A stretch of DNA of 61,382 nucleotides, taken from contig CAIMMI010000289.1 of the NCBI GenBank assembly GCA_903842505.1, positions 1-61,382 of the forward strand, given 5' to 3'. Source of the DNA: an uncultured Verrucomicrobiota bacterium (GTDB lineage: Bacteria; Verrucomicrobiota; Verrucomicrobiia; Limisphaerales; UBA9464). Each line of letters starts with the position of its first letter. Within the stretch, counting starts at the first letter, position 1. Made by a program: the position numbers and the translations under genes. Of this stretch, positions 9,829-33,074 are shown one piece after another. The notes below the pieces were generated by a model. It did not search any database, was not told the DNA's origin, and saw only the letters and a list, made by a program, of their open reading frames with translations.

Positions 9829-10190
9829 AAGCAAGGTCTCGGGGAGCAGGTGGCGAGCCGTTTTCACAGGTGTGAACCTTCGGGTTTTGGTGATGGCCCC
9901 TTCGGCGGATCCTTGGGGATGGGCAGTGCCGCGTGGGACCTTCACTTTCTTAGGGAAGCCCATCGTGGCGACCGCTGCAATACCTTGACTGGCATATTCA
10001 TTGCCATGGGCTGGCTTCGGGCACGGGTGTCTGGATTGGGGCTTGCGCGGTCGCGTTTGGGCGAAGCAACCTTCACGAATCAGCCTTTGTTGGTTAGGGA
10101 TTCTTCGGAAGGATTCAGGAACAGGGTTGTCCTGTGGGAGGCGCGTGGATGGGAATCCGGTCGGGGTCGTGCGCGCGGATAGGGGAATTC
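9829..10190. other. Intergenic region between divergent surface-protein and dltA-like genes
   Basis: This 362-base spacer separates the giant minus-strand gene from the plus-strand ligase operon and must hold promoters for both. The only recognisable element is a sigma-54-like site near 9990-10004, annotated separately. A Shine-Dalgarno-like AGGGGA lies just ahead of the ATG at 10191. No convincing sigma-70 pair was found for the giant gene, and no small gene is supported here. Confidence 0.5.
9990..10004 (+). promoter_or_regulatory. Candidate sigma-54 (-24/-12) promoter
   Basis: The sequence TGGCAT-N5-TTGC has the diagnostic GG (9991-9992) exactly ten bases ahead of GC (10003-10004), as in the sigma-54 consensus TGGCAC-N5-TTGC. 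It would start transcription near 10016 and leave a leader of about 175 bases before the ligase gene. A sigma-54-type activator is encoded at 55243-56622, but nothing links the two. A single match of this kind can arise by chance. Confidence 0.35.
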
Positions 10191-11717
10191 ATGCAGACGC
10201 TTGCCATTGAGTACCTGCGCGCAACAGCGCAGCGATTTCCGGAGAGGGTCGCCCTGGTCGACGGGGATCGGCGGATCACGTTTGCCGGGTTGTGGGAGCA
10301 GGGCGTGGCTTTGGCATCGGCGATCCTGCAGGCGGGCGTGGGCGGGAATATCCCGGTGCTGCTGGAAATCCCGAAATCCATCGAAGCGGTGGTGGGGTTG
10401 GTGGCGGTGCAGTTGACGGGGAACATCTACGTTCCGGTGGATCTCGCGGCGCCGGCGGCGCGGCGGGAGAGCGCGCGGTTGGTGTTGGGAGACCATGGCC
10501 GGTTGGGTTTCGTGCAGGGCGAGTTTGTCTGGGATGGGGTCGGGTTGGGCCCGGTTGGGAAGTGGTCGGGGAAAGGGTTGCCGGAGGCGGTGGGCCGACG
10601 GGTGGCGAAGCGGAACAGCACGGATCCCTTGTATGTGATCTTCACGTCCGGGACGACGGGGGTGCCGAAGGGCGTGACCATCGCGAATGCCTCGGTGATC
10701 GACTACATCGACTGGGCGGTGCGGGTGTACGGAGTGACGGAGGAGGACTCGATCGCGAGCCAGGCGCCGTTCTTCTTCGATAACTCGGTCCTGGATCTCT
10801 ATCTGATGATGGCGCGGGGCGCGACGCTGCACCTGTTGGCTCCGATGGTGCTGATGTTTCCGGCGACGCTGGTCGAGTACCTGCGGGATCAGGAGATCAC
10901 GATGCTGTTCTTTGTGCCGTCGCTGCTGAGCAACCTGGCGTCGCTGGACATGCTGGCGCAGTACTCGTTGCCGCGGTTGAACAAGATCCTGTTCGCGGGG
11001 GAAGTGATGCCATTGCCGACGTTGAAGTACCTGCGACGGCACTTTCCCGAGGCGTTGCTCTCGAACCTGTACGGACCGACGGAGATCACGGTGGATGCGA
11101 TCTACTGGGTCGCGGGGGATGCGGCATCGCTGGAGCGGTTGGATTCGGTGCCGTTGGGGTGGGCTTGCGAGAATTCGGAGATCCTGTTTCTGGACGAGGA
11201 GAACCGGTTGGTTGCGGTGCCGGACGTGCAGGCGGAGATCTGTGTGGGAGGGGTGGGCGTTGGGTTGGGGTACTGGAACAACCCGGAAAAGACGCGGGAA
11301 GTGTTCATCCAGCATCCGGGCCATCCCGCGTACCGGGACAACGTCTACAAGACGGGCGACCTGGGTTACGTGTCGTCACGGGACGGTTTGATCTACTTCA
11401 ACGGGAGGAAGGATCATCAGATCAAGCATCAGGGTTACCGCATTGAGTTGGGCGAGATCGAGACGGCCCTTTTGAAGCTGCCCGGAGTGCACCAGTGTTG
11501 CGTGCTCTACGATGCCGAGCGGAAGGAAATCGTGGCGTGGCATTCGCCGGTGGCTGGACTGGATGCCCGGAAGATGCAGGCTGCGCTGCGCGGTGCGCTT
11601 CCGGCGTACATGGTGCCCCGCCGTTTCGTGGTGGTGGAGGCCCTTCCACTGACTGCGAACGGCAAGGTGGACCGCGCTGGACTCTGGACCCTCTACCAAA
11701 AGACCCACCATGGCTGA
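10191..11717 (+). CDS. Amino-acid/acyl adenylating ligase, DltA-like
   Basis: A 508-residue ANL-superfamily enzyme that should activate a carboxylic acid (D-alanine in true DltA) with ATP and load it on a carrier protein. The adenylation P-loop F-T-S-G-T-T-G-x-P-K-G, the Y-G-P-T-E motif, Y-K-T-G-D-L-G and the C-terminal catalytic lysine in L-T-A-N-G-K-V-D-R are all present. Length fits stand-alone DltA. The ATG at 10191 is chosen because AGGGGA precedes it by four bases and the homologous region begins there; a GTG at 10134 lacks such support. The stop overlaps the carrier-protein start by 8 bases, so translation is probably coupled. The substrate cannot be read from the sequence, so D-alanine is only one possibility. 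Confidence 0.85.
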   Translation: MQTLAIEYLRATAQRFPERVALVDGDRRITFAGLWEQGVALASAILQAGVGGNIPVLLEIPKSIEAVVGLVAVQLTGNIYVPVDLAAPAARRESARLVLGDHGRLGFVQGEFVWDGVGLGPVGKWSGKGLPEAVGRRVAKRNSTDPLYVIFTSGTTGVPKGVTIANASVIDYIDWAVRVYGVTEEDSIASQAPFFFDNSVLDLYLMMARGATLHLLAPMVLMFPATLVEYLRDQEITMLFFVPSLLSNLASLDMLAQYSLPRLNKILFAGEVMPLPTLKYLRRHFPEALLSNLYGPTEITVDAIYWVAGDAASLERLDSVPLGWACENSEILFLDEENRLVAVPDVQAEICVGGVGVGLGYWNNPEKTREVFIQHPGHPAYRDNVYKTGDLGYVSSRDGLIYFNGRKDHQIKHQGYRIELGEIETALLKLPGVHQCCVLYDAERKEIVAWHSPVAGLDARKMQAALRGALPAYMVPRRFVVVEALPLTANGKVDRAGLWTLYQKTHHG

Positions 11718-11976
11718 CCCGGCTGACATCTCGCGACGTATCGGGGAGTTCTTCGAAGCGGAGTTCCCGCGTTCCGACGCGGTCCTGACGGACACGACGG
11801 ACCTCTTGAGGGACTGGTTGGTGGATTCGGCAGGAATCGTCAGCACGACGTTGTTCCTGGAGTCCGAGTTCGGGATCCAGATGCGGCGTGCGGACATCAA
11901 TGCGGTGCATTTCCAGAGCATCCGATCGTTGACAGCCTACGTCGTGGGGCGACTGGCGAATCCCCGAGGAAAATGA
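11710..11976 (+). CDS. Acyl/peptidyl carrier protein, DltC-like
   Basis: An 88-residue acidic carrier protein. The phosphopantetheine attachment serine is most likely in L-V-D-S-A-G-I (about residues 38-44), a variant of the usual D-S-L/x. A short helical region follows, ending in R-S-L-T-A-Y-V. It overlaps the upstream ligase by 8 bases and the downstream MBOAT gene by 4 (ATGA), which places it as the carrier for the residue activated by the ligase. It is small and divergent, so the call leans on gene order as much as on sequence. Confidence 0.8.
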   Translation: MADPADISRRIGEFFEAEFPRSDAVLTDTTDLLRDWLVDSAGIVSTTLFLESEFGIQMRRADINAVHFQSIRSLTAYVVGRLANPRGK

Positions 11977-13685
11977 GCGGCCTTCTGGGTGGGGCACCGG
12001 TGACGCCGGAAGAGCAGCGGAGGAACAACGGGCATCGGCACGGATGGGTGCTGGCGGTGCTGGGGGTGTTGTTCGTCTATCTCTATTGCTTCACCCATAT
12101 CGACCGGCGACTGGGCCTTCCGGCGCCACAGGATCTGGCGGAGCGGATGGGGATCCGAGTGGACCATGTCTTCGACAGCGACCGGAATGTGGACAGTGAG
12201 ATCCACGTTTCCTACAACGCGGAGACCTACTCGAACGACGACGAGCGGATGGTGTTGTTCCTCGGGGTGGGTGTGGCGTTCGTGCTGGTTTACTACCTTC
12301 CGGTGGCGTGGAAACGGCAGGCATTGCTGGCGGTGACGGTGGTGTTGGCGGTGGTGCTTTACGGTTGGGCAGGAATCGCGCTGTTCGTGGCGGCGCACAT
12401 GGGGGTGTACCTGATCCTGCACCCGGGTTTGGGGCCGCGTCCGGGATACGCCGCGTTGGCGGGATTTCTGGCGGGATCGGCGATGGTATCGAAGTCCGGG
12501 GGCATGCTGGCGGTGATGTATGGGACCTTGTGGGCGGCGATGGGAGCGGCGTTCTATCGGTTTGTGGTGTTGCCGGGCCTGGGCGTGCCGCGGTTGGCGT
12601 CGGTGCTGCGGGTGGTGGCCGTGCAGTCGGCGATGATCGTGGTCTTTGCCGGGGCGATCCTGAATGGGTTGGGTGGGGGTGAATGGTCGTTGCCGCTGGG
12701 AGTGATGCTCTTCTTTTGGAATTGGGAACGGTTGATGATGTACCACATCGACCATCAGGACGGGTTGGTGCCGGAGGATATCCCGCTCGACCGGTACCTG
12801 GGCGTCTTCCTTTCGCCGGGAACGATTCCGAACTGGAACTGGGGAGTTACGATCGGGCAGGGGTACGCGTACGTGGAGAACAACTTTCTGGCGGAGGACA
12901 AGAACCACCTGATCCGGAAGGGGCTTCAGTTGTACGGGGTGGCGCTGGTCTACATCGTGTTTGGCGACTGGGGACACGAGTGGTTGGTGAAGTTCCTCCG
13001 CTCGCAGGACCTGTATGTGTTCCACCGGGTGAAGAACCTTTCCCGGTACTTTGCGAATGGGGGTGAGGTGAGCACCCCGACGGTTTTGCTGACGACGTTC
13101 ATCGATGTCTTCCGGTGGATGGTTCTGTGGGGTGGGGTGGTCCACTTCAAGGTCGGGACGTGGCTGGTGTGCGGGTACAAGTGTGACCCGTACTTCAACC
13201 GGCCGTGGATGGCGACCAACCTGGTGACCCTGTGGAGTCGGTTCACCTTCCACTACCGCGAGTTCCTGGTGCGGGCCTTTTACTATCCGGCGTTCTTCGC
13301 GATGCCGAAGGTGGCGCGGTCGGTGCGGATCGTGTTGTCGACGCTGGCGGCGGCGACGTTCGGGAACTTCGTCTGGGGGCACATGAGCGAGGCCTTCTTC
13401 TACAAGCGGATCCGGTTCGAGAGCCTGCTCGATATCCTGCCGACGTGGCCGTACTTCGTGCTGATCGGGGTGGGCATCTCGGTGTCGGAGTTGTGGCTGC
13501 TGAGGAAGAAGCGGCTACGGCGGAAGCCGTGGACGTTGGACAAGTGGCTGCCGCTGGATGTGCTGGCGGCTTACGGGACGCTGCAGTTCTACGGGTTGAT
13601 CCACGTGTTCTTTTACCGGCACGACGGGGGTTCGACGTGGAACGACACGCGGTTGTTCCTGATTGGCTTCGGGATTCACCTCTGA
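11973..13685 (+). CDS. MBOAT-family membrane O-acyltransferase, DltB-like
   Basis: A 570-residue polytopic membrane protein with about ten or more hydrophobic segments, beginning with one at residues 24-40. The C-terminal half has MBOAT-like features: W-x-R-F-T-F-H-Y-R-E-F-L near 420-432, and a conserved-type histidine in W-G-H-M-S-E-A-F-F near 468-477. In DltB, the homologous protein moves a D-alanyl group from its carrier across the membrane. The gene overlaps the carrier gene by ATGA. It is longer than typical DltB (about 400 residues) because of an N-terminal part containing a soluble loop (about 45-85). No DltD partner follows; the next gene is convergent. Confidence 0.8.
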   Translation: MSGLLGGAPVTPEEQRRNNGHRHGWVLAVLGVLFVYLYCFTHIDRRLGLPAPQDLAERMGIRVDHVFDSDRNVDSEIHVSYNAETYSNDDERMVLFLGVGVAFVLVYYLPVAWKRQALLAVTVVLAVVLYGWAGIALFVAAHMGVYLILHPGLGPRPGYAALAGFLAGSAMVSKSGGMLAVMYGTLWAAMGAAFYRFVVLPGLGVPRLASVLRVVAVQSAMIVVFAGAILNGLGGGEWSLPLGVMLFFWNWERLMMYHIDHQDGLVPEDIPLDRYLGVFLSPGTIPNWNWGVTIGQGYAYVENNFLAEDKNHLIRKGLQLYGVALVYIVFGDWGHEWLVKFLRSQDLYVFHRVKNLSRYFANGGEVSTPTVLLTTFIDVFRWMVLWGGVVHFKVGTWLVCGYKCDPYFNRPWMATNLVTLWSRFTFHYREFLVRAFYYPAFFAMPKVARSVRIVLSTLAAATFGNFVWGHMSEAFFYKRIRFESLLDILPTWPYFVLIGVGISVSELWLLRKKRLRRKPWTLDKWLPLDVLAAYGTLQFYGLIHVFFYRHDGGSTWNDTRLFLIGFGIHL

Positions 13686-13812: not shown

Positions 13813-16149
13813 TCAGCGGGACCTGGTGGGTTGCTTGGCGGGGTCGGGTTGGTGGGTGACGCGGGTGGATCCGTCGTCGGCGCAGTCGAGGTGGAGGTTT
13901 CCCGGAGCGGGGTGGGGGTGGGCGACGCGCCAGCGGGCGATGGGGATGGCGACGAGGAGTTCGAGGGTGCGTTGGAGGGGGCGCGCGCCGAGTTGGCGGT
14001 CATATCCGGCGCGGGCGACGGCCTGGACGACGGACTCGGACCAGGTGAGACGAAGGCCTGCTGCGGCGAGGCCTTCGCGGGAGGCGAGGTCGTGGAGTTC
14101 CTTGCGGGCGATGGATTCGATGTTGGAGGCCGTGAGGGGTAGGAACGTGATGACCTCGTCGAGACGGTTGAAGAACTCGGGTCGGAAGAAGCGTGCCACT
14201 TCGCCGGCGTAGTCCGTCTGTTCCGCGTTGGCGAATCCCATGCCGCGGGCGGCTTCGGCGCCGAGGTTGGAGGTCAGGATGATGACGGCGCTGCGGAACC
14301 AGGTGATCCGGCCGAAGCGGTCGGTGAGTCGGCCTTCGTCGAGGAGTCCGAGGAGGACGTCGAAGACCTCTGGGGCGGCCTTCTCGATCTCGTCGAAGAG
14401 GACGACACAGAACGGTTGGCGTCGGACGCGTTCGATCCAAGCGGACGGGCGCCCCTGGGAATCGAGGAGGAGGCGGCGGGCGGCGCCCCAACCGCTGAAC
14501 TCGCTCATGTCGAGTCGGACGAGGCGGTCCTTTTGTTGGCCGGCGCCGAAGCAGAAGTCGACGAGGGTGCGGGCGAGAGCGGTTTTTCCGACGCCGGTGG
14601 GACCGCAAAAGAGCAGGACGCCGAGGGGGCGGCCGGGGTCATTGAGGCCGGTCTTGATGGCGGCGACGAGGCGTGTGGCGGCCTCGGCGGCTGCGGGTTG
14701 GCCGATCACCTGGGACGAGAACTTGCGGGAGAGATCGTGGGTATCGAGGGGCAGGTCATCCCGTAGGAACAGTTCGGGGAGGCCGGTATCGCGGACGAAG
14801 GCGGCGACGGCATCGGCATCGGTCAGTTCGCGGGGGGTGGTGGGGGTTTTGGCGCGGCGGCGGGCTTCGGTGACGGAGCGGATGAAGGCGGCGGCGGGGC
14901 CGGGGAAGGCCGAGTAGGGTTGGAAGCGTCGGAAGATGCGGTGGACGCGGGTCACGAAGCCGGGTCGCAGGGACAGGCCGGCAGCGGAAGCGCGGGTCTC
15001 GGCGATGCGGGTGAGGACGCGGTCGACCTCGGGTTCGGAGAAGGAGGGGACATGGACGGGTTGGCAGACGTCGAGGAGGCCGGGCAGGAGGCGGCGGCAG
15101 GCTTCGAGTTCGGCGGGGCTGGCTTCGCCGACGAGGCGGATCTCGCTGCGCTGGAGGTAGGGCAGGAGAAAGGCGGCCACGCTGTTGGCCGGGCCCTGGC
15201 CACCGACCGAGACGAGTTCGAGAAGGTTCTCAACGCAGAAGATCCCGTCGATGGTGGCGAGTTGGCGGATGAACTCCTCGCATCGTTCCTCCCATTCGCC
15301 GAGGTAGCGCATCCCGGCGATCATGCGCGCGCCGGTGCCGCGCCAGAATCGGTAACGGCCCAGGTCCGACGAATCTTCGTCCTGGGGTTCTGAGTCCTTG
15401 GTCCGGCTGCGGGAGAGTTTGCGGACGGCGTCGAGGAGGACGGTGGACTTTCCGGAGCCGGGTTCGCCGACGAGGACGAGGCTGGTTTTCTCCTGGGTCA
15501 GGAGATGTTGGAGGCGGGCGACGAGGGGGTCGCGTTCGTAGGCAGCGGAAGAGGCAGAGGCACGGTGGCGGTCCTGAAGGAGTGGGTCGGCGACGGTGAA
15601 GAGGACCTTGAGATCGGGGCGGGACTCCGGGGGCGGGCGGCGTTCCGAGCCGACCTTTTGGCGGAGGACGATTTCGTCGAGTTGGCAGTTGGCGGGAGGG
15701 ATCCGGAGGGCGACCTGGGAGGGATTGAGATTGCGGAGGGATTCCTTCACGTAGTGGGCGACGAGGCCTTTGAGGTCGCCGTTGGACTGGAAGGTGAACT
15801 GGACGGAGAAGTGGGGAACGACGCAGAGAGGAAGGCCGGACTCCTGCATGCCGACGACGCAGGGGACGAGCATGGGGATGGACTCCGGGCAGGGGACGAA
15901 GCGTTGGCCGGACTGGTACTGGGGGCGGACGTCGACGCGGACTTCGACCAGGCGGCATTCCTGGAGTTCGGGTTCCGCGACCCACGGTTCATTCTGGAGA
16001 TTCCACTCGATGAGTTCGCGGAGTTGGTGGAGGACCTCGGTCCGGGTGGTGGCGGAGGCGGCCGGGGTTTCGAGTTCGTTGACGATGGTTCCGGAGTGAT
16101 GTCCGGCCGAATCCGCCCAGAGCAGGACTGGGTAGCGTCGGGTGATCAT
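13813..16149 (-). CDS. Divergent Clp/Hsp100 double-AAA+ ATPase, third gene of cassette (C)
   Basis: A 778-residue protein with an unrecognised N-terminal region (1 to about 215), then two AAA+ modules. D1 has Walker A G-E-P-G-S-G-K-S (about 226-237) and a pore-loop-like R-Y-L-G-E-W-E-E-R, but its Walker B position reads V-E-N instead of D-E (about 303-316). D2 keeps G-P-T-G-V-G-K-T (about 511-523), L-F-D-E-I-E-K-A (about 581-590), T-S-N-L-G, the arginine finger in R-P-E-F-F-N-R and sensor-2 G-A-R-P-L-Q-R. The D2 pore loop lacks G-Y-V-G. A tripeptide M-G-F (about 637-639) sits where ClpA/C/X carry their ClpP-binding loop. There is no ClpB middle coiled coil. The ATG overlaps the upstream stop as ATGA. 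Unlike its two partners it ends soon after D2. Confidence 0.85.
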   Translation of the reverse strand: MITRRYPVLLWADSAGHHSGTIVNELETPAASATTRTEVLHQLRELIEWNLQNEPWVAEPELQECRLVEVRVDVRPQYQSGQRFVPCPESIPMLVPCVVGMQESGLPLCVVPHFSVQFTFQSNGDLKGLVAHYVKESLRNLNPSQVALRIPPANCQLDEIVLRQKVGSERRPPPESRPDLKVLFTVADPLLQDRHRASASSAAYERDPLVARLQHLLTQEKTSLVLVGEPGSGKSTVLLDAVRKLSRSRTKDSEPQDEDSSDLGRYRFWRGTGARMIAGMRYLGEWEERCEEFIRQLATIDGIFCVENLLELVSVGGQGPANSVAAFLLPYLQRSEIRLVGEASPAELEACRRLLPGLLDVCQPVHVPSFSEPEVDRVLTRIAETRASAAGLSLRPGFVTRVHRIFRRFQPYSAFPGPAAAFIRSVTEARRRAKTPTTPRELTDADAVAAFVRDTGLPELFLRDDLPLDTHDLSRKFSSQVIGQPAAAEAATRLVAAIKTGLNDPGRPLGVLLFCGPTGVGKTALARTLVDFCFGAGQQKDRLVRLDMSEFSGWGAARRLLLDSQGRPSAWIERVRRQPFCVVLFDEIEKAAPEVFDVLLGLLDEGRLTDRFGRITWFRSAVIILTSNLGAEAARGMGFANAEQTDYAGEVARFFRPEFFNRLDEVITFLPLTASNIESIARKELHDLASREGLAAAGLRLTWSESVVQAVARAGYDRQLGARPLQRTLELLVAIPIARWRVAHPHPAPGNLHLDCADDGSTRVTHQPDPAKQPTRSR

Positions 16150-19100
16150 GGGGCGGTTGGGTGGAGGGCGGCGACAGCGCGGGCGAGGGCGTCGTCGATG
16201 GCGGGAGGGAGTGGCAGCGCCGAGAGGAGGAATGCCCGGGCGTCGTCGTTGGATGCGGTGTTCGGGGCGAGGCGTTCGCCGGAGCTGAGGTCGTGGACTT
16301 CCTCGATGACGGGGAAGAGGGCGATGCTGGGCATGACGGCCCGTGCACGGAAACGGACCAGACCGAGGGCGTCGAGGCGGGGAACGAAGTCGGCGGGTTG
16401 CAGGGTCTCGACCCGGGCGTGGGCCTCGGCGAGGGAGTTCATCGGGATCACTTGGGTATGGGTGAAGCGGACGGATCCGTCGGGTTGGTCGACGAGCATC
16501 CAGTGCGAGCCGGTTTGGAGGATGCGGAAGAGTTGGATGCCCTGGGCGACGAAGAGGTTATTGCCGGTCCCGAGGATGCGGCGGCGGCGCGTGTGGATGC
16601 GGACGGATTCGTGCTGGAAGCCGGCGAACTGGTCGAGGGAGGCGTGGATGAGGGAGAGTTTGCCGATGCAGTCGACCTTTTCGGGATCGCCGAGGGAGCT
16701 TTCGAGGACGAGTGCGACCTGATGTTCCGGGGAGCCGGAGGAGAGGGCGTGGAGGAGGGCGATTTCGCGGAAGAGGGATTCGAGGCCGGAGGCTTCGCTG
16801 GCCGGATCGGGGTTTTCGCGGTCGGCGAGGTCGGCGAGATCGGCTTGGAGTGCGGCGGCGGCGCGTTGACGGACGAGGCGGGAGCGGGTGGAGTCGTGGG
16901 AGTGGGAGACGACCTTGACGGGTTTTGGGGAAGGGCGGCGGTTGATGGTGGGGCGCGCGCGGAGGTTGTCGGGGGTGGCTTCGACGGTGGCGAGGAGTCG
17001 TTGGATGTGGTCGAGGCGTTCGCGGCAGAGGAAGTACCGTGCGTGTTGGCGAGGGATGCGGCCGAGTTCGATGGGGCCGGAGGGGGCTTCGGGTTCGAGT
17101 TGGGCGCGGATGGCTTCGACGACGTCCTCGATGACGTCGAGGAGGAACTCCGGGCAACCGGCGGCGAGGTGTTGGGCGAGTTCGCGGGCGCGGCGAGGCC
17201 AGTGGACGGAGAGGGACGCGAGTTCGACGGTCCGCGTCTGGAGTTCGAATCCGGAGGAGTCCGCGTGGAGTTGGGCGACGAGCGGGGCGGTATCGGTGAC
17301 GTTGGCGAGGCGGGTGGCGAGCGGTTGGGCGATCTCGCGTTCAACGACGCGTTTGAGGGCGCGGGCGCCGAGTTGCGGGTGGTAGCCGAGTTGGACGAGG
17401 CGGTCGATGGCTGGAGGAGTGGTGAGGAGGAGGCAACGGCGACGGCGCAGGCCATCGCGTTCCAGGACCTGGTTGACCAGGCGGCGGGCGATTCGTTCGA
17501 GTTGGGTTCGGTCGAGGCTGCGGAAGGGAATGACGCGGTCGAGTCGGTTGAAGAACTCGGGGCGGAAGAACTGTTCGGCGGCGCGGAGGTAGATGGCGTC
17601 TTCGGAACCGGGTTCGGAGGTGGAGCTGAAACCGAGGCGCGAGCGGGCTTCGCGTGCGCCGAGGTTGGAGGTGAGGAGGATGACGCTCTGGGAGAAGTCG
17701 GCGACGCGACCGAGGGCGTCGGTGAGGCGGCCTTCGTCGAGCACGGCGAGGAGGAGGTCGGAGACCTCCGGGGCGGCCTTCTCGAATTCGTCGAGGAGGA
17801 CGATGCTGAAGGGTTGGCGGCGGATGGCGCTGGTGAGGAGTCCGTCGGGGTCGGCGGGAGTTCCGGTGAGGCGGGCGGTGCTGGCGCCGTCGACGAATTC
17901 GTTCATGTCGAGGCGGAGGAGTCGGTCCTCGGATCCGAAGAGGAGTCTGGCAAGGGCCTTGGCGGATTCGGTCTTTCCGACGCCGGTGGGGCCGAGAAGG
18001 AGGAAGGTTCCGAGGGGTCTGCCTGGGTCGTTGAGACGGGCCTTGAGGGTGACGAGGATGTCGGCGAAGGCGTGGAGGACCTGGTCCTGACCGAGGACGC
18101 CGGTGCGGAGTTCGCGGAGGATGGCCTCGCGGTTGAGGGTCTTCTGGTCATCAAGGACGGTGAGGCGGAGGCCGCTGATGCGGTGGAATTCGGCGAGGAC
18201 CGTTTCGCGGTTGATGGTGACGCCTGCGTTGCGGTTGGCGAGGTGGCGGAGGAAGGCGGCGGCCTTTCCGGGGAAGGCGGCGTCGCCGGCGTGGCGTCGC
18301 TGGAGTTCGTAGACGGCGGGGACGACCTCGACGTCGAAGCGGCAGCGGTGTTCGAGTTCGAGGCGACGGGAGACGTCGATGAGGACGCGGAGGATCTGGG
18401 GTTCGGGAGGTTCGGCGAGAGGGATGACGTGGAACAGGTCGGCGAATGCGCGGTCGCGTTCGCGGAGGATGCGCCAGGCCTCCGGGGTGATCTCGGCGAG
18501 GACGCGGACGGCGCGGCGGGTGAGGGCCGGCTTCAGGACGTGGGCGATGCTGAGGTCGGAGGCGTTGCTGTGGCCGGCAGTGAAGAGGCCGAGAAGGTCG
18601 TCGAAGTAGAGGGTTCGGTCGCGGCGGGCGGCGTGGTCGAGGATGGCGGTGACGCGACTTTCCCATTCGCCGAGGTGGCTCATGCCGCTGATGAGGCGCA
18701 TGGGGGAGAGGAGCCAGATTTCGCGGCCGCTGGCGTATTTCTCGCGTTTCCGGGCGGCGATGCGCCAAGCGAGTTCGTGGAGGAGGGTCGTCTTGCCGAC
18801 CTTGCGGGGACCGACGAGGACGATGGGGCGGCGGTCTGAAGCGGAGAGGAGGCGGGCGAGTTCGTCGACTTCGCGGTCGAGTCCGACGGCGCGCTGGAGA
18901 TCGTCCGGGTAGAGGGCGTGGAGGGGTCGGCCGATGCGACGGAGTTCGCGTTCGCCATCGATCTTTTCCTCTTCGCCGAAGAGGAGGGTGCGGGAGGGCT
19001 TGGAGGGAGCCTTGGCCAGAGCGCCGGGTTGGAGTGCAATGGGGAGGACGGCAAGGCGGGCGCGGCCGGCGAGAGCGTGTTCGGAGAGTTCGAGGAATCC

Positions 19101-19532
19101 CTCGCGTTCGATTTGACGGAAATGGCGGGTGAAGACCAGGCCTGCCCTGGATTCCAGTTGCTGGCCGGGGAGGACCTCGAAGTGGATATCGGGAAGGGCG
19201 GGGCTGAACCAGAGTTCGCGGTCGAGGGCCTGGTACCCGAGGAGGAAAAGGCGGAGTTTCTGGGCGCCGGAGTCGAGGTCGAGGCGGAGTTCCAGGGTGG
19301 CCTCCTTCAGGGGGCCACGAGAAGTCCAACGGGCGAGCGACTCGTGCCGGGGTTCGGTACCGAGTTGGTGGAGGTGGTTCTGGAGATCGGTGGTGAGGCG
19401 GGCCAGGGCGCGGCTGAGTTTGTCCGCGCGCTGGACGAAGGCGGGATCGAAGGCGGGGCGGACGATAAAGGACGGGGGCTTGCCGCCGGAGGCGGGGAGT
19501 TCCTCGATGAAGATCGGGATGTCGAAATTCAC
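16146..19532 (-). CDS. Divergent Clp/Hsp100 double-AAA+ ATPase with RF-like tail, second gene of cassette (B)
   Basis: A 1,128-residue protein. Residues 1 to about 230 match nothing I recognise. D1 has Walker A G-P-R-K-V-G-K-T (about 239-250) and the best-kept D1 Walker B of the three, Y-F-D-D (about 306-318), with Asp in place of the catalytic Glu. D2 is canonical: G-P-T-G-V-G-K-T (about 511-523), L-L-D-E-F-E-K-A (about 576-584), T-S-N-L-G, R-P-E-F-F-N-R and G-A-R. G-Y-V-G is absent. L-G-F (about 633-635) occupies the ClpP-loop position. Residues about 900-1100 resemble, weakly, the PCRF and peptidyl-transferase parts of release factors. The GTG at 19532 is chosen because it overlaps the upstream stop (GTGA) with CAGGAG five bases ahead; upstream in-frame starts would lie inside the previous gene. 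Confidence 0.85.
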   Translation of the reverse strand: MNFDIPIFIEELPASGGKPPSFIVRPAFDPAFVQRADKLSRALARLTTDLQNHLHQLGTEPRHESLARWTSRGPLKEATLELRLDLDSGAQKLRLFLLGYQALDRELWFSPALPDIHFEVLPGQQLESRAGLVFTRHFRQIEREGFLELSEHALAGRARLAVLPIALQPGALAKAPSKPSRTLLFGEEEKIDGERELRRIGRPLHALYPDDLQRAVGLDREVDELARLLSASDRRPIVLVGPRKVGKTTLLHELAWRIAARKREKYASGREIWLLSPMRLISGMSHLGEWESRVTAILDHAARRDRTLYFDDLLGLFTAGHSNASDLSIAHVLKPALTRRAVRVLAEITPEAWRILRERDRAFADLFHVIPLAEPPEPQILRVLIDVSRRLELEHRCRFDVEVVPAVYELQRRHAGDAAFPGKAAAFLRHLANRNAGVTINRETVLAEFHRISGLRLTVLDDQKTLNREAILRELRTGVLGQDQVLHAFADILVTLKARLNDPGRPLGTFLLLGPTGVGKTESAKALARLLFGSEDRLLRLDMNEFVDGASTARLTGTPADPDGLLTSAIRRQPFSIVLLDEFEKAAPEVSDLLLAVLDEGRLTDALGRVADFSQSVILLTSNLGAREARSRLGFSSTSEPGSEDAIYLRAAEQFFRPEFFNRLDRVIPFRSLDRTQLERIARRLVNQVLERDGLRRRRCLLLTTPPAIDRLVQLGYHPQLGARALKRVVEREIAQPLATRLANVTDTAPLVAQLHADSSGFELQTRTVELASLSVHWPRRARELAQHLAAGCPEFLLDVIEDVVEAIRAQLEPEAPSGPIELGRIPRQHARYFLCRERLDHIQRLLATVEATPDNLRARPTINRRPSPKPVKVVSHSHDSTRSRLVRQRAAAALQADLADLADRENPDPASEASGLESLFREIALLHALSSGSPEHQVALVLESSLGDPEKVDCIGKLSLIHASLDQFAGFQHESVRIHTRRRRILGTGNNLFVAQGIQLFRILQTGSHWMLVDQPDGSVRFTHTQVIPMNSLAEAHARVETLQPADFVPRLDALGLVRFRARAVMPSIALFPVIEEVHDLSSGERLAPNTASNDDARAFLLSALPLPPAIDDALARAVAALHPTAP

Positions 19533-22500
19533 GATGGCTCCTGTCCGGTGATGGTCCGCATCTGACCTTCGAGGCGTTCCTCGATCAGGGTGGCGAGGGC
19601 TGCCTGCCATTCGGTCGCGGGGCAGTTCCGTTCACCGAGGTGGAGGTCCCGGACGATGTCCTGGCTGGTGACGAAGGTTCGTCGGGTGGCGCCGGCGGAG
19701 GCCTTCACGCGGCCGGGTTGTTCGATGCGTTCGGGGACCTTGAGGGTGTCGAGGTCGTGTGTGTGTGTCTGGATCCAGGCCACCTGTTCGCGGCGGCCCT
19801 CGCGGAAGCAGTGCAGGCCGTCCTCAGCGGTGAATCTGGGGAAGGAGAGGTCGCCGCTGAGGCGGAGCGCCACGCCCCAGACGTCGTCCGGGAGCGGATC
19901 GGGCCACAGTTGGGGATTCGGCTGTGGTTTGCGGACGAGTCGGAGGCCGGTCTTGCGGGCCGTGTTGGATGCGGTGAAGAAGTCGATGGCCTCGACGGTG
20001 CCGAGGCGTGAGGCAATCCGGTGGTAGGTGCCGGCAAATGCGCTGAGGAGTTCGCGGGGTTCGGCGAAGAACGCCATCACGATCCCGTTGGGGTTCGGGA
20101 GGTGGGTCTGGAAGAGGTCGTGTACGACCCGCTGCCGATCGGCCTCGATGGCGGCCAGTCGGATGATGAAGGGGGATGGGTCGACGGGCAGTCGTTGGTA
20201 CAGCGGCAGGAGCAGTTCGTCCTCGAGTTGCTCAATGGCGCCCACGAGTTGGTCGCAGGAGGTCCGGCAGGCGCGGAGTCGCTCGAGCCGGGCCCGGTTT
20301 TCCGGGGTGGGCTGCCGGGTGGCGCCTCGGCGTCGTTCGGCGGCTTCCAGGAGGTGAAATTCGTCGTCGATCTGGGAGCCGGCGAAGCTTCCGGCGAGTC
20401 GGTTGATCTTCCGGCGCAGCAAGACCGAACGGTCGGCGAGGGATTGCGGGGTCGTGGCCTGTGCGTCCGGGACGGACGCCGGAGTTGGTTCATGGATGGC
20501 AGGGCGGACGAGGACGTCTGGCCGGCCATCCTTCCAGCCGACCACGGCGGCGAGGGGGGTATTGCAGGGATGGGAGTTGAGTCCGTCGGCCAGCGGCACG
20601 AGGAGTTGGCGGGCGATGGTCCTGCGGAGGGGGCGGGCACCGTAGCGGATGTCGTATCCTTCGGCTGCGAGGTGCCGGGCGACCTCGGGTTCGATCCGGA
20701 GGTTTACCGGTCGGAAGCGCAGGCCATCGCGGAGTCGGATTTCCTCGAGGTGGCGGGTGGCGATCTGGAGGACGACCGTTTCGTCGAGCGGGAGGAACGG
20801 GACGACGGCATCGATGCGGTTGAAGATTTCGGGTCGGAGGAACCGGCGCACGGCATCGGAGAAGTGTTCGCCGGCGGAGTCGCGTCGGGTGCCTCCGGTC
20901 CTGAACCCAACGGGGCCGGTATGGAAGCCCTGGGCGCCGAGGTTGGAGGTCATGATGACGACGCTGTTGCAGAAGTCGGCGACGCGGCCGGAGGCGTCGG
21001 TCAGACGGCCATCGCCGAGGAGTTGGAGTAGCAGGTCGAAGAAGGAGGGGTCGGCCTTTTCGAATTCGTCGAGGAGGATGACGCTGAAGGGTTGTTCGCG
21101 GACGCGAGCAGTGAGGAGTCCTTCGGTGCCTCCGGTGGCGGGACCGCCGATGAGTCGCTGGACGGCGATGGGATCGGCGAATTCGTTGAGGTCGAAGCGG
21201 ACCATGCGGGTGACATCGCCGAAGAGGAATTTGGCGGTAGCCTTGGCCATCTCGGTTTTTCCGGTACCGGTGGGGCCGATGAAGAGGAAAGAGGCCAGAG
21301 GTTTGCGGGGCCTGGAGAGCCGGGCCTTGACCATGGCGAGGAGGTTGAGGACGCGATCGACGGCGGCGGGTTGGCCGACGACCCGGTGGGAGAACCAAGC
21401 CTTGGTTTCGTCGAGGTCGAGCGGGACGTCGTCGTCGAGGAGGACGGTGGGAAGGCCGGTCTCGCGGGAGAAGGCGTTGAGGACTGCAGACTCGGAGAGG
21501 GACTTTTCCGGGAATTGATCGGCGAGGAGATTGTGGAGAAAGCGGAGGGGTCGGCCGGGATTGGCTGAGTAGGTGGCGTAGCGGGAGTGGAGTTGGTGGA
21601 TGCGGTCGAGGGCGAGCGTGGTCTGGGTGGAGACCCCGGTGGCTTTGCCGGGAGCGGCTTCGACGACGCGTTCGAGGATGCGGCGGACCTGGGCTGGGGA
21701 CCGTTCCGGGATGTTCCAGAGCTGGAAGGACGCGAGAAGGTTGGGCTCCTGACGATCGATGACAGCGAGTTGGTCGGGAGTCGCCTCGGCAATGGCGAAG
21801 ATCTCGCCGCGGGCGATCCAGGAGCGGAGGAATCCTCCGACGCTCTGGCCGTCGCGGGAGACTTTTCCGACCTCGATGAGTTCGGCGAGGTTGCCCAGGT
21901 GAAGGACGGCGCGGGTGCGGGCGATCTCGCGGCAGAGTTGCTGGCAGCGTTCCTGCCACATGCCGAAGCCGACGGGACCGGACATGAGGCGGGCGGCCGT
22001 GGTGGTCCAGAAGGCGGTATGGGCAAAGCCGAGGTCGGCGCGTCGGCGGGCGAGTTCCCGGACGAGCGCAGACTTTCCGCTGCCGGGTGGTCCGACGATG
22101 AGGATGCTTCTTCGGTGGGCGCCGGAGGTGGCATCGACGAAGCGTTGGAGGTCTTCCTCCAGTTCGTGGACGATTTCGGCGCCTGCCGTGGACGTTTTCG
22201 ATGGGCGGGCTTGGGCTGGGCCGGTTGCTGATTGGATCGGGGGGAGTTCCTCGGCGAGTTGCTCCAGGATGGCGGAGCGATCGGCTTCGCCCTCGGCGGC
22301 GGCGGCCTCCTGCCGGGGTGACTTGCGATGGATGCTGACTTCGAGGGATTCGGAGTGGATGGAGCGGACGCGGGCCAGTTCGGCGAGTCGCGCCAGGTTG
22401 GGCGGTTGGCTGACGCTGGCGAGGATGAGTCGGACGTGTTCCTCGACGTGTTGTCGGAGTTGGGCCGGGCGGCTAGCGAAGACGTGGGCGCCGAGGACTG

Positions 22501-22840
22501 GAACGTAGGCCTGAAGCCGGCCTTCCTCGGTCCACCGCGCAAAATGGATGGTCAGGGTGACCGGGGTTTCCCATTCAGCAGATCTTTTGGGAGGGACGAA
22601 TGTGACCTCGATGGAGTCGATTTCGACAGGCACGCCGATGCGGCGGCGGTGGAGGGAAATTGCCGGGACGAGGGTGGTGTCCTCGAGAAGGGTCTTGGCC
22701 TTGGTCGCGAGGGTCGCGTGGCCCGGGCGCGATCCATCCTCCAGCGACGAGACCTCCGGTAAGGCGAGGGCTTCGCAAAGGTGAACATCCTCATCGAGGA
22801 CGCGGATCAGGCATTTCAGGTTGATCGACTCGGGTGGCAT
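19529..22840 (-). CDS. Divergent Clp/Hsp100 double-AAA+ ATPase with RF-like tail, first gene of cassette (A)
   Basis: A 1,103-residue protein that heads the three-gene operon. The N-terminal region (1 to about 230) is not recognised. D1 has Walker A G-P-P-G-S-G-K-S (about 245-255) but its Walker B has decayed to H-L-G-N (about 312-325), so D1 probably does not hydrolyse ATP. D2 is intact: G-P-T-G-T-G-K-T (about 518-530), L-L-D-E-F-E-K-A (about 586-595), T-S-N-L-G, R-P-E-I-F-N-R, G-A-R-P-L-R-R. V-G-F (about 644-646) matches the ClpC-type ClpP loop. Residues about 915-1090 look like a release factor: a PCRF-like block, F-T-A-E-D-G-L-H-C where PCRF has E-x-G-V-H-R, then A-S-A-G-A-T-R-R where RFs have A-S-G-A-G-G-Q. 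Start: ATG 22840; an upstream ATG at 22975 would overlap the divergent moaB. Confidence 0.85.
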   Translation of the reverse strand: MPPESINLKCLIRVLDEDVHLCEALALPEVSSLEDGSRPGHATLATKAKTLLEDTTLVPAISLHRRRIGVPVEIDSIEVTFVPPKRSAEWETPVTLTIHFARWTEEGRLQAYVPVLGAHVFASRPAQLRQHVEEHVRLILASVSQPPNLARLAELARVRSIHSESLEVSIHRKSPRQEAAAAEGEADRSAILEQLAEELPPIQSATGPAQARPSKTSTAGAEIVHELEEDLQRFVDATSGAHRRSILIVGPPGSGKSALVRELARRRADLGFAHTAFWTTTAARLMSGPVGFGMWQERCQQLCREIARTRAVLHLGNLAELIEVGKVSRDGQSVGGFLRSWIARGEIFAIAEATPDQLAVIDRQEPNLLASFQLWNIPERSPAQVRRILERVVEAAPGKATGVSTQTTLALDRIHQLHSRYATYSANPGRPLRFLHNLLADQFPEKSLSESAVLNAFSRETGLPTVLLDDDVPLDLDETKAWFSHRVVGQPAAVDRVLNLLAMVKARLSRPRKPLASFLFIGPTGTGKTEMAKATAKFLFGDVTRMVRFDLNEFADPIAVQRLIGGPATGGTEGLLTARVREQPFSVILLDEFEKADPSFFDLLLQLLGDGRLTDASGRVADFCNSVVIMTSNLGAQGFHTGPVGFRTGGTRRDSAGEHFSDAVRRFLRPEIFNRIDAVVPFLPLDETVVLQIATRHLEEIRLRDGLRFRPVNLRIEPEVARHLAAEGYDIRYGARPLRRTIARQLLVPLADGLNSHPCNTPLAAVVGWKDGRPDVLVRPAIHEPTPASVPDAQATTPQSLADRSVLLRRKINRLAGSFAGSQIDDEFHLLEAAERRRGATRQPTPENRARLERLRACRTSCDQLVGAIEQLEDELLLPLYQRLPVDPSPFIIRLAAIEADRQRVVHDLFQTHLPNPNGIVMAFFAEPRELLSAFAGTYHRIASRLGTVEAIDFFTASNTARKTGLRLVRKPQPNPQLWPDPLPDDVWGVALRLSGDLSFPRFTAEDGLHCFREGRREQVAWIQTHTHDLDTLKVPERIEQPGRVKASAGATRRTFVTSQDIVRDLHLGERNCPATEWQAALATLIEERLEGQMRTITGQEPS

Positions 22841-24974: not shown

Positions 24975-27122
24975 ATGAAGCTGATTCTGGGACTCCTATT
25001 GAAGCTGTGGTTTCGTTTCCGGGCGTTCGATACGTCGGTGCTGAGCGCGCCAGGCCCGGTGCTGCTGATCCCGAATCACGTCTCGTGGTTGGACTGGGCG
25101 TTCCTGGCTGCGGTGCTGGATGACGACTGGAAGTTCGTCACGAGTGCCACAACGGCAGAGGCCTCGTGGTTGCATCGGAAGATCATGGTGAATCGCCGGA
25201 CTTTTCCGGTGGATGCCACCTCGCCGTATGCGGCGAAGCGGATGGCGGAGTTCCTGTCGGGTGGTGGCAGACTGGTACTGTTCGCCGAGGGGCGGATCAC
25301 GTTGTCGGGTTCGATGATGAAGCTCTACGAAGGCACGGGCTTCCTGCTGCACAAGACGCGGGCGAAAGTGATCCTTTGCTACCTGCGGGGCGCGGTTCGG
25401 GTGCCGTTCGTGAGGCATGCCGGGTGGACGAAGTGGTTTCCGAAGGTGACGGCACACTTCAGTCCACTGCTGGAATCGCCCGTCGTGGAGGGAGTCTCGA
25501 ACACGGTGGCGCGGCGGCGCCTGACGGCGTGGTTGCGGGACCAGATGCTGCGGCAGCATTACGAAGTGGAGATGGCGTTTGGTCCGTCGCACGTGCTGGC
25601 GGCGGTTGCGCAGACGGCGGCCCAGCTTCCAGGCAGGGAAGTGCTTGAGGACGTCACTTTCCAGCCGCTGACCTTTCGTCGGTTGATGACCGGAGTTGGG
25701 GTGTTGGCTGGGCGTTGGCAGGCATTGCTCGGCCGCACGCCGGTGGGCGGACGGGTGGGGGTGCTCTTGCCGAACGTGAACGCGGTCCCCGTCACGTTGC
25801 TGAGCTTGTGGGCGGTGGGCCGGGTGCCGGCGATCCTCAACTTCTCGACGGGGATCCCGGTGATGAAGCTTTGTCTGGAACTCGCGGGGGTGAAGCAGGT
25901 GATCACGTCGCGGGCGTTCCTGCAGAAGGCGAAGTTGGATCTGGCCCCGTTGACGGCCACGGGGTTGGAGTTGGTTTATCTGGAGGATGTGCGGGCCGGG
26001 GTCAGCGGGATGGCGAAGTTGGCGTGCCTGATGCGCAACCTCGTGAGTTGCGGCGGGGCCTACCGCGAGCTTTCGGCGGGTGCAGATGATACGGCGGTGA
26101 TCCTGTTCACCTCGGGTTCAGAGGGGATTCCCAAGGGGGTGGAGCTGACGCATCGGAACCTGCTGGCCAACATCCGCCAGATCACGGTCCACCTCGACGT
26201 GACGGACAGTGAAAGGTTTTTCAATGCGATGCCGTTGTTCCACAGCTTCGGTCTGACGACCTGCACGCTGTTTCCGTTGGTGCAGGGTTATTACATCTTC
26301 CTGTATCCGTCGCCGCTGCACTACCGGGCGGTTCCGGCGATGGTTTACGACAAGGCCTGCACGGTGGTGGTGGGGACCAACACGTTCCTGAACGGTTACG
26401 CACGCAAGGCCCACGCCTACGACTTCAATTCGGTGAAGTACCTCGTTGCCGGAGCCGAGAAGCTCCAGGAAGCGACAGCAAACACGTGGGCGCGGCAGTT
26501 CGGGATCCGCATCATCGAAGGGTACGGTGCCACGGAATGCAGTCCGGTGCTGTGTGCCAATTCGCGGGTGGATCCGAGGTTTGGCTCGGTGGGGCGCTTC
26601 CTGCCGGGAATCGATTACCGTTTGGAGTCGGTGCAGGGCATCGACGTGGGAGGGCGCCTGTTTGTCCGGGGAGCGAACGTGATGCGCGGCTACCTGAATG
26701 CGGATGCGAACGCGAAGTTCCAGGCGATGGGAGGTTGGTATGACACCGGTGATCTGGCGCGTGTGGATGAGGACGGGTTTGTGTTCCTGATGGGCCGGTT
26801 AAAGCGTTTTGCGAAGGTCAGCGGCGAAATGGTGAGTCTGACAGCGGTGGAGGATGCGTTTGCCGGGTCCTTCCCCCAGTACGGCAACCGATGCGAGGTA
26901 GCCGTGGTGGCAGTGCCCTGCGAAGACAAGGGCGAGAAGTTGGTGGCGGTAACGAATGAGCCACGCCTGACGCTGGCGGAGTTGCGGGAGATTATCCGGG
27001 CGAGGGGACTGCCGAACCTCGCGGTGCCGCGCGAGATCCGGCAGGTGCGCGAGATCCCAAAGTTGGGGACCGGCAAGACGAACCATCGGGAACTGATGGC
27101 GTTGATCGAATCCGGAGGGTGA
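24975..27122 (+). CDS. aas: Bifunctional 2-acyl-GPE acyltransferase / acyl-ACP synthetase (Aas-like)
   Basis: A 715-residue fusion. The N-terminal part (about 1-200) is a PlsC-type acyltransferase with N-H-V-S-W-L-D (the N-H-x4-D-type catalytic site, about 34-40) and F-A-E-G-R-I-T (about 96-102). The C-terminal part (about 230-715) is an AMP-forming acyl ligase with L-F-T-S-G-S-E-G-I-P-K-G, E-G-Y-G-A-T-E-C, W-Y-D-T-G-D-L-A and the terminal lysine in G-T-G-K-T. Aas loads fatty acid on ACP and transfers it to lysophosphatidylethanolamine at the inner membrane; length matches the family (about 720). It lies 81 bases after the LplT-like transporter. The stop is 4 bases from the stop of the convergent PQQ-like gene. 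Confidence 0.88.
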   Translation: MKLILGLLLKLWFRFRAFDTSVLSAPGPVLLIPNHVSWLDWAFLAAVLDDDWKFVTSATTAEASWLHRKIMVNRRTFPVDATSPYAAKRMAEFLSGGGRLVLFAEGRITLSGSMMKLYEGTGFLLHKTRAKVILCYLRGAVRVPFVRHAGWTKWFPKVTAHFSPLLESPVVEGVSNTVARRRLTAWLRDQMLRQHYEVEMAFGPSHVLAAVAQTAAQLPGREVLEDVTFQPLTFRRLMTGVGVLAGRWQALLGRTPVGGRVGVLLPNVNAVPVTLLSLWAVGRVPAILNFSTGIPVMKLCLELAGVKQVITSRAFLQKAKLDLAPLTATGLELVYLEDVRAGVSGMAKLACLMRNLVSCGGAYRELSAGADDTAVILFTSGSEGIPKGVELTHRNLLANIRQITVHLDVTDSERFFNAMPLFHSFGLTTCTLFPLVQGYYIFLYPSPLHYRAVPAMVYDKACTVVVGTNTFLNGYARKAHAYDFNSVKYLVAGAEKLQEATANTWARQFGIRIIEGYGATECSPVLCANSRVDPRFGSVGRFLPGIDYRLESVQGIDVGGRLFVRGANVMRGYLNADANAKFQAMGGWYDTGDLARVDEDGFVFLMGRLKRFAKVSGEMVSLTAVEDAFAGSFPQYGNRCEVAVVAVPCEDKGEKLVAVTNEPRLTLAELREIIRARGLPNLAVPREIRQVREIPKLGTGKTNHRELMALIESGG

Positions 27123-27126: not shown

Positions 27127-28374
27127 TCAGGGCTTTGGTTCGATCCAGTCGTAGGCGGCGAGGGCCTTGAGTTCGCGGATGAAGAGTTGGTCGCCGGCCA
27201 AAGCAAGATGGGCCCACGTATCCTCACCGAGCTTCCGCTTGTCCAGGATCTCCAGTTTCGTGGGGTTGGCGGCCAGGAGGAAGAGGATCCCCCGTTCGTC
27301 CAGGGCCAGGATGCGGTCCTTGGCGGCAATGAGGCTCCAGTACTTGCCAAAGCCCTCTCCGGAGGTCCACTTCTCGGTGCCGGTGGCGGCATCGATGCAG
27401 AGGGCGCGCTGATTTCGCAGGTGAAGGTAGGCGTGGCCGTCGATGAGCACTGGCGACGTCATGTATCCTTGGGCCTTGAAGGACCAAGCGGGTTGGACGA
27501 CGAAGCGTTCACCTTCCCTGAGGATGTCGTAGGCAAGGGTCTTGCCGCCGTAGGTGCTGGTGAACAGTCGGTTGGAGGAAACAACGGTTGGGGTCAGGAT
27601 GTTCATGCCCCGGAAGGCCTCCACCGGGGTTGACCAGAGTTCCTTGCCAGACTCCGGATCCAGACCGGCGAGATGGGTGCGGGTCTGGACAACCAATTGA
27701 TCCACCCCTGCGAGGCGGGCCAGCACTGGAGAGCTGAAGGCACTCCCGTTCATGCCCCCTCCGTCCGTCATCGAGCGCCAACGGATCTCGCCGGACTTCT
27801 TGTCGAGTCGGACAACCCCTCCGCCTGCCTGCACAAAGAGGGCATTGGAGGTGACGAGCGGTGAGCAGACAAATCCGAAGGCTGGTACTTCCGTCTTCAG
27901 TTCTGCCGGGAAATCCTTCCGCCATCGGATGGCCCCGGACCCAGCATCGAGGCATACCAGAACGTCGCGCATCCCTGCCACGTACAGGGAATCTCCGTCC
28001 CAAGCGGGGGTGGATCGGATCCAGTCGCCGTTGGACTTGGCGAAGAACGGCACCTTCATGGCACCTTGCCAATTGGTGCTCCAGAGTTCCTTGCCGGTCT
28101 TCCGATCCAAGGCGCGGACCACTTCGAGCTGGGCGTCAGCGGTCTCAGTGGTGAAGACGCGGTCCGGGGTGACGATCGGGCCCGAGTAGCTGGGACCGAG
28201 CGGAACGCGCCACTTCAGCTTCAGGTGACTTTCACCAATCTGACTGGGCCATTTGTCGCCCGGAACCCGACCATCGCGATCCGGACCTCGCCACTGGGGC
28301 CAGGTATCGGCTCCCAGGACTGGGAGCGACGCGGACAGGAATACCGATACCAGAAGTGCGACTTTTGGGAGCAT
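27127..28374 (-). CDS. Exported PQQ-like beta-propeller protein (first paralogue)
   Basis: A 415-residue protein with a signal peptide (residues 1 to about 21, ending V-L-G-A) followed at once by W-P-Q-W-R-G-P, the usual opening of the many secreted PQQ-like proteins in Planctomycetes and Verrucomicrobia. Repeated blades contain W-W-type pairs such as G-K-E-L-W-S-T and G-A-I-R-W-R-K with V-x-x-L-D between them, as in BamB/PQQ-dehydrogenase propellers. No dehydrogenase active-site aspartate or haem domain was seen, so enzymatic activity is unproven. It acts in the periplasm or outside. It sits 76 bases downstream of the LpxL-like gene, possibly in one transcript. A second, similar protein lies at 33075-34298. 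Confidence 0.8.
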   Translation of the reverse strand: MLPKVALLVSVFLSASLPVLGADTWPQWRGPDRDGRVPGDKWPSQIGESHLKLKWRVPLGPSYSGPIVTPDRVFTTETADAQLEVVRALDRKTGKELWSTNWQGAMKVPFFAKSNGDWIRSTPAWDGDSLYVAGMRDVLVCLDAGSGAIRWRKDFPAELKTEVPAFGFVCSPLVTSNALFVQAGGGVVRLDKKSGEIRWRSMTDGGGMNGSAFSSPVLARLAGVDQLVVQTRTHLAGLDPESGKELWSTPVEAFRGMNILTPTVVSSNRLFTSTYGGKTLAYDILREGERFVVQPAWSFKAQGYMTSPVLIDGHAYLHLRNQRALCIDAATGTEKWTSGEGFGKYWSLIAAKDRILALDERGILFLLAANPTKLEILDKRKLGEDTWAHLALAGDQLFIRELKALAAYDWIEPKP

Positions 28375-30480: not shown

Positions 30481-30516
30481 CGCCCGGAGCTTCCCTGCTC
30501 CGGGCGTTTTGCTTTT
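30481..30516 (+). terminator. Rho-independent terminator after FecR, directly ahead of the cyclase
   Basis: A perfect 10-base-pair stem CGCCCGGAGC/GCTCCGGGCG with a 6-base loop is followed by TTTTGCTTTT. It ends 14 bases before the ATG of the CHASE2 cyclase, leaving no room for a promoter in between. The cyclase must therefore be reached by read-through or from a start inside or upstream of the hairpin. Confidence 0.85.
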
Positions 30517-30529
30517 CACAGGTAAAATC

Positions 30530-33034: not shown

Positions 33035-33074
33035 GCCGGTTGACCCGGTGCGCTTCCCGGAGCAGGGTGGGCGT

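Follow-up and report, generated by a model that had tools for sequence, protein, structure and literature searches.

Three co-inherited Clp/Hsp100 paralogues with a degenerate first AAA+ module and, in two of them, release factor 2-like regions in uncultured Verrucomicrobiota

Introduction

The known bacterial Clp/Hsp100 rings are homomeric, the textbook homohexamers. Here we analyse three genes, A, B and C (together the trio), which lie in a stretch of 61,382 nucleotides (the window) from an uncultured Verrucomicrobiota bacterium of the order Limisphaerales (GenBank assembly GCA_903842505.1, contig CAIMMI010000289.1) and which encode head-to-tail double-AAA+ Clp/Hsp100 paralogues joined by 4-base overlaps. 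The reading that we consider reasonably probable is that A, B and C are dedicated subunits of one Clp/Hsp100 machine, a heteromeric unfoldase triplicated from a fusion of a Clp protein with a pseudo-release factor.

Several described systems resemble the trio in part. ClpC and ClpA share with it the two AAA+ modules (D1 and D2) and an xGF motif at the ClpP-docking position, and the absence of a long M-domain is a trait of ClpA; the trio differs from both in that no Clp_N domain was found, D1 is catalytically degenerate, the GYVG pore loop of D2 is deleted, a C-terminal region related to release factor 2 (RF2) is present, and there are three co-inherited paralogues. The ClpB/Hsp104 disaggregases give the best D2 profile match, whereas the trio has neither an M-domain nor the D2 GYVG, its D1 is non-hydrolytic by motif, and it carries the xGF. 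The cut-offs of the curated ClpA and ClpB models, like those of every curated Clp family, are not reached. ClpI of Actinomycetota has recently been added to the double-ring Clp classes and occurs both with and without LGF loops; in the available part of its description it has intact ATPase modules and an M-domain, is encoded by a single gene, and has no release-factor domain reported (PMC10149685).

Outside the Clp proteins, Pex1/Pex6 has been described as the sole double-ring heterohexamer known among type II AAA+ proteins, and its inactive D1 forms an ATP-bound assembly layer (PMC10518020). As an analogue of how the trio might work it shares the double ring, a degenerate D1, D2 as the motor and paralogous subunits; it differs in belonging to another AAA+ clade, in having two subunits and aromatic D2 pore loops, and in that its heteromeric state has been shown while that of the trio is inferred. 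The preliminary description of the locus had likened the trio to dynein- or Rvb-type assemblies; by analogy, Pex1/Pex6 with its ATP-bound inactive D1 fits better than either. The MoxR-vWA ternary conflict systems also place AAA+ proteins in three-gene units, also in Verrucomicrobia and Planctomycetes, and one class pairs AAA+ domains of which the first is inactive; no MoxR, vWA, FtsH or effector gene is found at the trio, and that account of multi-gene NTPase conflict systems makes no mention of release factors (PMC7159879).

We place the trio within Clp/Hsp100; its two uncommon traits are the pseudo-release-factor fusion and the three-gene form. The combination of a three-gene Clp with a dead release factor is absent from the named families and the open-access literature searched: no Clp–RF2 fusion was found in either, no open-access paper combined PCRF, Clp and AAA, and Clp goes unmentioned in the main review on how release factors evolved.

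Recurrence and co-inheritance of the trio

The carriers are draft genomes of uncultured bacteria, and prevalence was taken from samples of the order and the phylum. The order was scanned with the N-terminal domain of C, which is absent from ordinary Clp proteins, and this probe found C in 13 of 320 genomes; two genomes from another order bring the carriers to 15. The trio is present in the order A-B-C in 10 of them (G000, G002, G006, G046, G245, G275, G680, G614, G685 and, with frameshifts, G518). These include two species of the genus (G002 and G006), another family of the order (G046) and a different order of the same class (G245 and G275). Concerning the remaining carriers, A-B and C lie on two different contigs in G012, the three genes are spread over three contigs in G665, and the loci of G500 (B-C) and G462 are interrupted by contig ends. 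Only G525 holds C material without A or B, and this is a degraded remnant (G525:C99:118244-118723, a lone C fragment with a stop). The A-B-C locus of G518 (L084, 2979-12176) contains frameshifts, possibly assembly errors; G518 and G525 appear to reflect decay of the trio in some lineages, or assembly errors. The preliminary description had proposed that recurrence in many genomes with the gene order and overlaps kept would mark a system, and that genes found only singly would refute this. The trio recurs with its order kept in 10 of the 15 carriers and so is a system by that measure; the refuting pattern did not occur, as the sole carrier of C alone is the remnant in G525. Full-length homologues of the trio proteins are found at 32-73% identity, which excludes chance.

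In a tree of the D1–D2 core, A, B and C each form one clade (support 100/99 or better). A fourth clade of equal support is formed by a family of single-gene sisters (S, described below), which falls outside the trio; the branch uniting the trio has a support of 93/94. The identity matrices of A, B and C across ten genomes are correlated (Mantel r 0.977, 0.986 and 0.977), and none of 5000 permutations reached values as high. A, B and C are therefore paralogues inherited together, and with the clade structure this implies either a triplication before the split of the orders or a unit that moved whole. Carriers of the trio and carriers of S do not overlap among 58 relatives, numbers too small to claim exclusion.

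The protein lengths (1103, 1128 and 778 residues) and the GTGA and ATGA overlaps given in the preliminary description were confirmed by open reading frames (ORFs), Pfam and the sequence, but its claim that all three genes are coupled stood for one junction only. The A/B junction is an overlap or lies within +6 bases in 10/10 genomes examined (-4 or equivalent in seven), whereas the B/C spacing ranges from -19 to +21. The overlap is thus conserved at A/B, where coupling is tight, and not at B/C, where coupling is loose. The same description was right on the trio as such; what it overlooked are the RF2-like character of the last 350-390 residues of A and B, a fused and catalytically dead RF2 as the defining trait of the family, and the missing pore loop of D2.

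AAA+ modules and conserved motifs

Each of the three proteins contains one strong AAA_2 plus ClpB_D2-small module in Pfam, which is D2 (AAA_2 E-values 1e-34 to 1e-39), and D1 gives only weak generic AAA matches. The D1–D2 part of B can be aligned to positions 168-717 of the ClpA model. In the aligned family, the Walker A motif GK[ST] of D1 is kept in 10/11 A, 11/11 B and 13/13 C proteins; a Walker B DE in register and the paired arginine fingers are essentially absent, the lone 'DE' in the D1 rows of A being an out-of-register match. In D2 the Walker A, Walker B, sensor 1, arginine finger and sensor 2 are present in every row, and five reference Clp proteins in the same alignment retain all motifs of both modules. 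Of the class I Clp traits, the tandem D1–D2 arrangement with a ClpB D2-small domain is found in A, B and C (PF07724 and PF10431); catalytic motifs in both modules are not, as they are lost in D1 and intact in D2. By motif, therefore, the trio has the pattern of an inactive D1 ring and an active D2 ring. The distance from the D1 Walker B to the D2 Walker A is 207-213 amino acids in A, B and C of the window, against 270 in the ClpC and 334 in the ClpB of the same genome, and a linker of this length excludes an M-domain. The degenerate first module, the intact second one and the lack of a ClpB-type middle coiled coil were all anticipated in the preliminary description, and the alignment bears them out.

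The three N-terminal domains are related (C against A, hhalign P 2.8e-5; the link of B is weaker). They matched no Pfam family, and Clp_N was not found among the listed Pfam matches (for A and C, the best 25). By eye only, they look like tandem HicB-like folds.

Concerning the pore loops, the GYVG loop of D2 with its tyrosine is present in 5/5 reference Clp proteins and in 0/41 family members, where it is deleted. D1 of S and of C has an aromatic pore-loop residue, as does D1 in roughly half of the B proteins; in A such a residue occurs at a shifted position. Since the D2 GYVG is deleted and the D1 aromatic residue kept, gripping of the substrate may take place in D1 and the power may come from D2. 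At the position of the MGF of ClpC in D2, 39/41 members have xGF (the other two have GY and AF), and the residue before GF is hydrophobic in most. The motif is shared with the ClpC of the phylum and is missing from the ClpB of the genome. The genome encodes one ClpP, besides an ordinary ClpB (C201), an ordinary ClpC (C142), both identified by sequence, and other AAA_2 proteins. Because xGF occupies the docking position and LGF loops are the accepted marker of ClpP docking (PMC10149685), docking of the trio on this single ClpP is likely.

Release factor 2-like regions in the single-gene sisters and in A and B

The S proteins, the nearest sisters of the trio known, consist of HEAT repeats, a Clp core and about 360 residues of RF2. 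Their loci are L027-L030, L047-L052 (Verrucomicrobiota metagenome-assembled genomes, MAGs) and L053 (a truncated locus in a Planctomycetia MAG); the S gene lies at 3114-6596 in L047, with others in L049, L050, L051 and L052 and a partial one in L053. Pfam PCRF scores above its curated cut-off in three S proteins, and NCBIfam prfB matches S at 4.5e-7. A single S sequence searched against the Protein Data Bank (PDB) with phmmer finds Escherichia coli RF2 at 6e-7, its significant matches being filled by release factors, and a profile of five S sequences finds RF2 at 9e-15 over residues 17-369 of 380. The AlphaFold model of the RF2-like domain (predicted local distance difference test, pLDDT, 82; predicted template modelling score, pTM, 0.78) has free RF2 (1gqe) as its top Foldseek match at 3.7e-16 over 359 columns; template modelling (TM) scores are lower against ribosome-bound, opened RF2. 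By profile and Foldseek, S has domains 1-4 of the class I release-factor fold. S therefore shares with RF2 (prfB) the whole four-domain fold, collinear to the DLRTG tail, its own tail IRRYDLGIGSRIKDLRTG mirroring IRSYVF..RMVKDLRTG of RF2; it differs in being fused behind an Hsp100 and in the loss of both functional motifs. Aligned with the phylum's own RF2, the SPF stop-codon tripeptide segment and the catalytic GGQ loop are both deleted, and GGQ is missing from the C-terminal part of every family member, S and trio alike. With the RF2 fold kept and SPF and GGQ deleted, S joins a Clp unfoldase to a release factor that is whole but erased in function. The genome encodes genuine RF1 and RF2 as well. 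A scan with the D1 of S found no S protein in 388 genomes of the phylum (positive control 1e-137). In addition, G007 has a third PCRF match that spans two neighbouring reading frames (G007:C160:35444-35933), possibly a further relative of release factors or a damaged gene.

The C-termini of A and B are tied to release factors only by profile–profile comparison (hhalign) with the S plus RF2 profile. A scores 66.7 (P 2.7e-8, 215 columns in register), against a maximum of 22.3 in 200 column shuffles and 21.6 when reversed; B scores 43.3 (P 6e-5, 171 columns), against 19.7 in 150 shuffles and 16.9 reversed. The N-terminal domains, used as controls against the same profile, give P 0.2-0.5. When the C-terminal profiles of A and B were searched by themselves against PDB sequences there was no match, and Pfam found no release factor in the A C-terminus. 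The RF2 tail motif, a D[LFYH]R[ST]G box, is present in 11/12 B proteins readable to the end: the orthologues retain DLRTG, DLRSG or DFRTG, and B of the window has DLSSG. Most A proteins carry an RDxxLGxR tail, which by eye aligns with KDLRTGxxT of RF2. On this evidence an origin from RF2 is well supported for the A C-terminus and probable for that of B. No RF2-like region was seen in C, which stops after D2.

Proposed mechanism and alternatives

In the mechanism that we propose, a single-gene ancestor would have been triplicated and its copies specialised, giving a mixed double ring built of all three subunits. A fixed ratio, or the A2B2C2 ring of the preliminary description, is as hypothetical as the mixed ring. 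The D1 ring would bind ATP without hydrolysis, as an assembly layer that carries the aromatic pore loops; the D2 ring, with intact catalytic motifs and no GYVG, would be the motor, and the xGF loops beneath it would pass the substrate to the only ClpP of the cell. In A and B, the pseudo-release-factor parts would stand in for the usual Clp N-domain adaptors as a targeting or docking module, most plausibly to the translation machinery. A docking module is the most likely role of the dead release factor; given the loss of SPF and GGQ, it may be kept only as a protein-binding scaffold. We hold it doubtful that the three-subunit ring is docked on ribosomes by its pseudo-release-factor tails and extracts proteins at stalled or terminating ribosomes for ClpP, and we would put no higher the idea that such a ring is a bacterial analogue of a Cdc48- or Pex1/Pex6-type extractor built on a dead release factor.

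Several observations weigh against this mechanism or parts of it. Homohexamers are possible, because every subunit has a complete D2 site, and the overlap of B and C is not conserved. Processive threading into ClpP is doubtful with a D2 that has no GYVG; some A and C proteins have S, A or T in front of GF instead of a hydrophobic residue, and a C-terminal extension of 350 residues on the ring face that would meet ClpP might block docking. SPF and GGQ are the best-known ribosome contacts of RF2, and as both are lost, ribosome targeting may be wrong. The similarity of B to the RF2 profile is moderate, and the AlphaFold model of the A C-terminus (six sequences: A of the window and five sister proteins) reached a pLDDT of only 43 and was not used.

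The alternative that survives best, which we still regard as rather unlikely, is that A, B and C are three separate homohexameric Hsp100s of the same pathway, merely co-expressed, the operon setting the stoichiometry of expression and not assembly. The complete D2 of all three is what an autonomous ring needs, the homomeric nature of the known bacterial rings is in its favour, and the unlinked genes of G012 and G665 indicate that strict co-translation is not required. However, the three genes co-occur almost perfectly and are all kept even when unlinked, their distances correlate at 0.98, no carrier of a single intact subunit was found among the 15, and A, B and C have all lost the D1 arginine fingers and Walker B, a parallel to the obligate heteromer Pex1/Pex6.

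We find it clearly unlikely that only two subunits share a ring, for example A and B, both RF2-tailed and more tightly coupled, with C as a separate ring or as a regulatory or substrate-loading partner. The A/B junction is tighter and more conserved than B/C, C has no C-terminal domain, and in G012 A and B have stayed together while C has moved; but C groups with A in the core tree (89/90, not starred) instead of being an outlier, it shares the D1/D2 motif pattern, and in G665 A and B are on different contigs too. Finally, we think it improbable that the trio serves in phage defence or another conflict, with the pseudo-release factor as the sensor of an attack on translation: the patchy, accessory distribution (13/320 in the order), the ties of release-factor homologues to ribosome-targeting conflicts (PMC6514570) and the lack of conserved partner genes, as in a self-contained module, would suit it, but PADLOC matches show generic AAA+ similarity only, the neighbourhood in the window is housekeeping (CTP synthase, anthranilate synthase, CorA), there is no toxic effector domain, no plasmid record matched A (plasmid searches gave only generic Clp/AAA+ similarity), and phages hold ordinary ClpA-like matches only.

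Features of the locus and its neighbourhood

The coordinates of the genes, domains and overlaps are presented in Table 1. Long plus-strand ORFs over the trio, such as one of 892 amino acids antisense to B (16161-18839), are most likely antisense shadows of a GC-rich genome, and could be annotated by gene callers.

Table 1. Genes, domains and junctions of the trio, with positions in the window.
Feature	Position	Strand	Description	Evidence
Gene A	19529-22840	minus	1103 aa; N-domain, D1 (ATP-binding only), D2 (active motifs), C-terminal eroded RF2-like region	ORF, Pfam, motifs, profile comparison
Gene B	16146-19532	minus	1128 aa, GTG start; N-domain, D1 (Walker B = DD), D2 (active motifs), C-terminal RF2-like region	ORF, Pfam, motifs
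Gene C	13813-16149	minus	778 aa; N-domain, D1, D2; ends after D2-small, without RF2-like region	ORF, Pfam
A, D2 AAA+ module and D2-small	20576-21304	minus	aa 513-755	PF07724 4.4e-39, PF10431 5.1e-13
B, D2 AAA+ module and D2-small	17304-18020	minus	aa 505-743	PF07724 1.3e-39, PF10431 1.1e-11
C, D2 AAA+ module and D2-small	13933-14631	minus	aa 507-739	PF07724 1.8e-34, PF10431 2e-11
A, C-terminal region, RF2-derived (well supported)	19529-20473	minus	about aa 790-1103; without GGQ, without SPF	hhalign to sister plus RF2 profile
B, C-terminal RF2-like region	16146-17255	minus	about aa 760-1128; most eroded	hhalign, tail motifs
C, N-terminal domain	15550-16149	minus	aa 1-200; related to A N-domain, more weakly to that of B; no Pfam match	hhalign
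GTGA overlap, A stop / B start	19529-19532	minus		sequence
ATGA overlap, B stop / C start	16146-16149	minus		sequence

The genes that flank the trio look like lipid or envelope metabolism. On one side there are an AMP-ligase (10134-11717, plus strand) and a protein of 570 amino acids with membrane-like segments and no Pfam or NCBIfam match (11973-13685, plus strand); on the other there are an acyltransferase–AMP-ligase fusion (24975-27122, plus strand) and a lipid A acyltransferase (28451-29548, minus strand). Also, a CHASE2-guanylate cyclase gene (30509-33034, plus strand) adjoins genes of PQQ/BamB-like beta-propellers (27127-28374, minus strand, and 33024-34298, plus strand). When the flanks of the first loci were compared all against all, no neighbouring gene was conserved apart from synteny among near-species. 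With no neighbour conserved together with the trio, and with housekeeping surroundings, the three proteins appear self-sufficient.

Significance

A heteromeric ring, if it is confirmed, would to our knowledge be the first for a bacterial Hsp100. A family with a one-gene form and a form of three co-inherited genes would allow a direct test of the step from a homomeric to a heteromeric AAA+ ring, and the single-gene family of HEAT repeats, Clp core and pseudo-RF2 is worth its own study. The fusion of a complete, catalytically erased RF2 to a Clp unfoldase is unexpected, and suggests a link between translation and Clp proteolysis. An Hsp100 clade that has lost the pore loop of D2 and the ATPase of D1 is also a natural experiment on the role of each ring.

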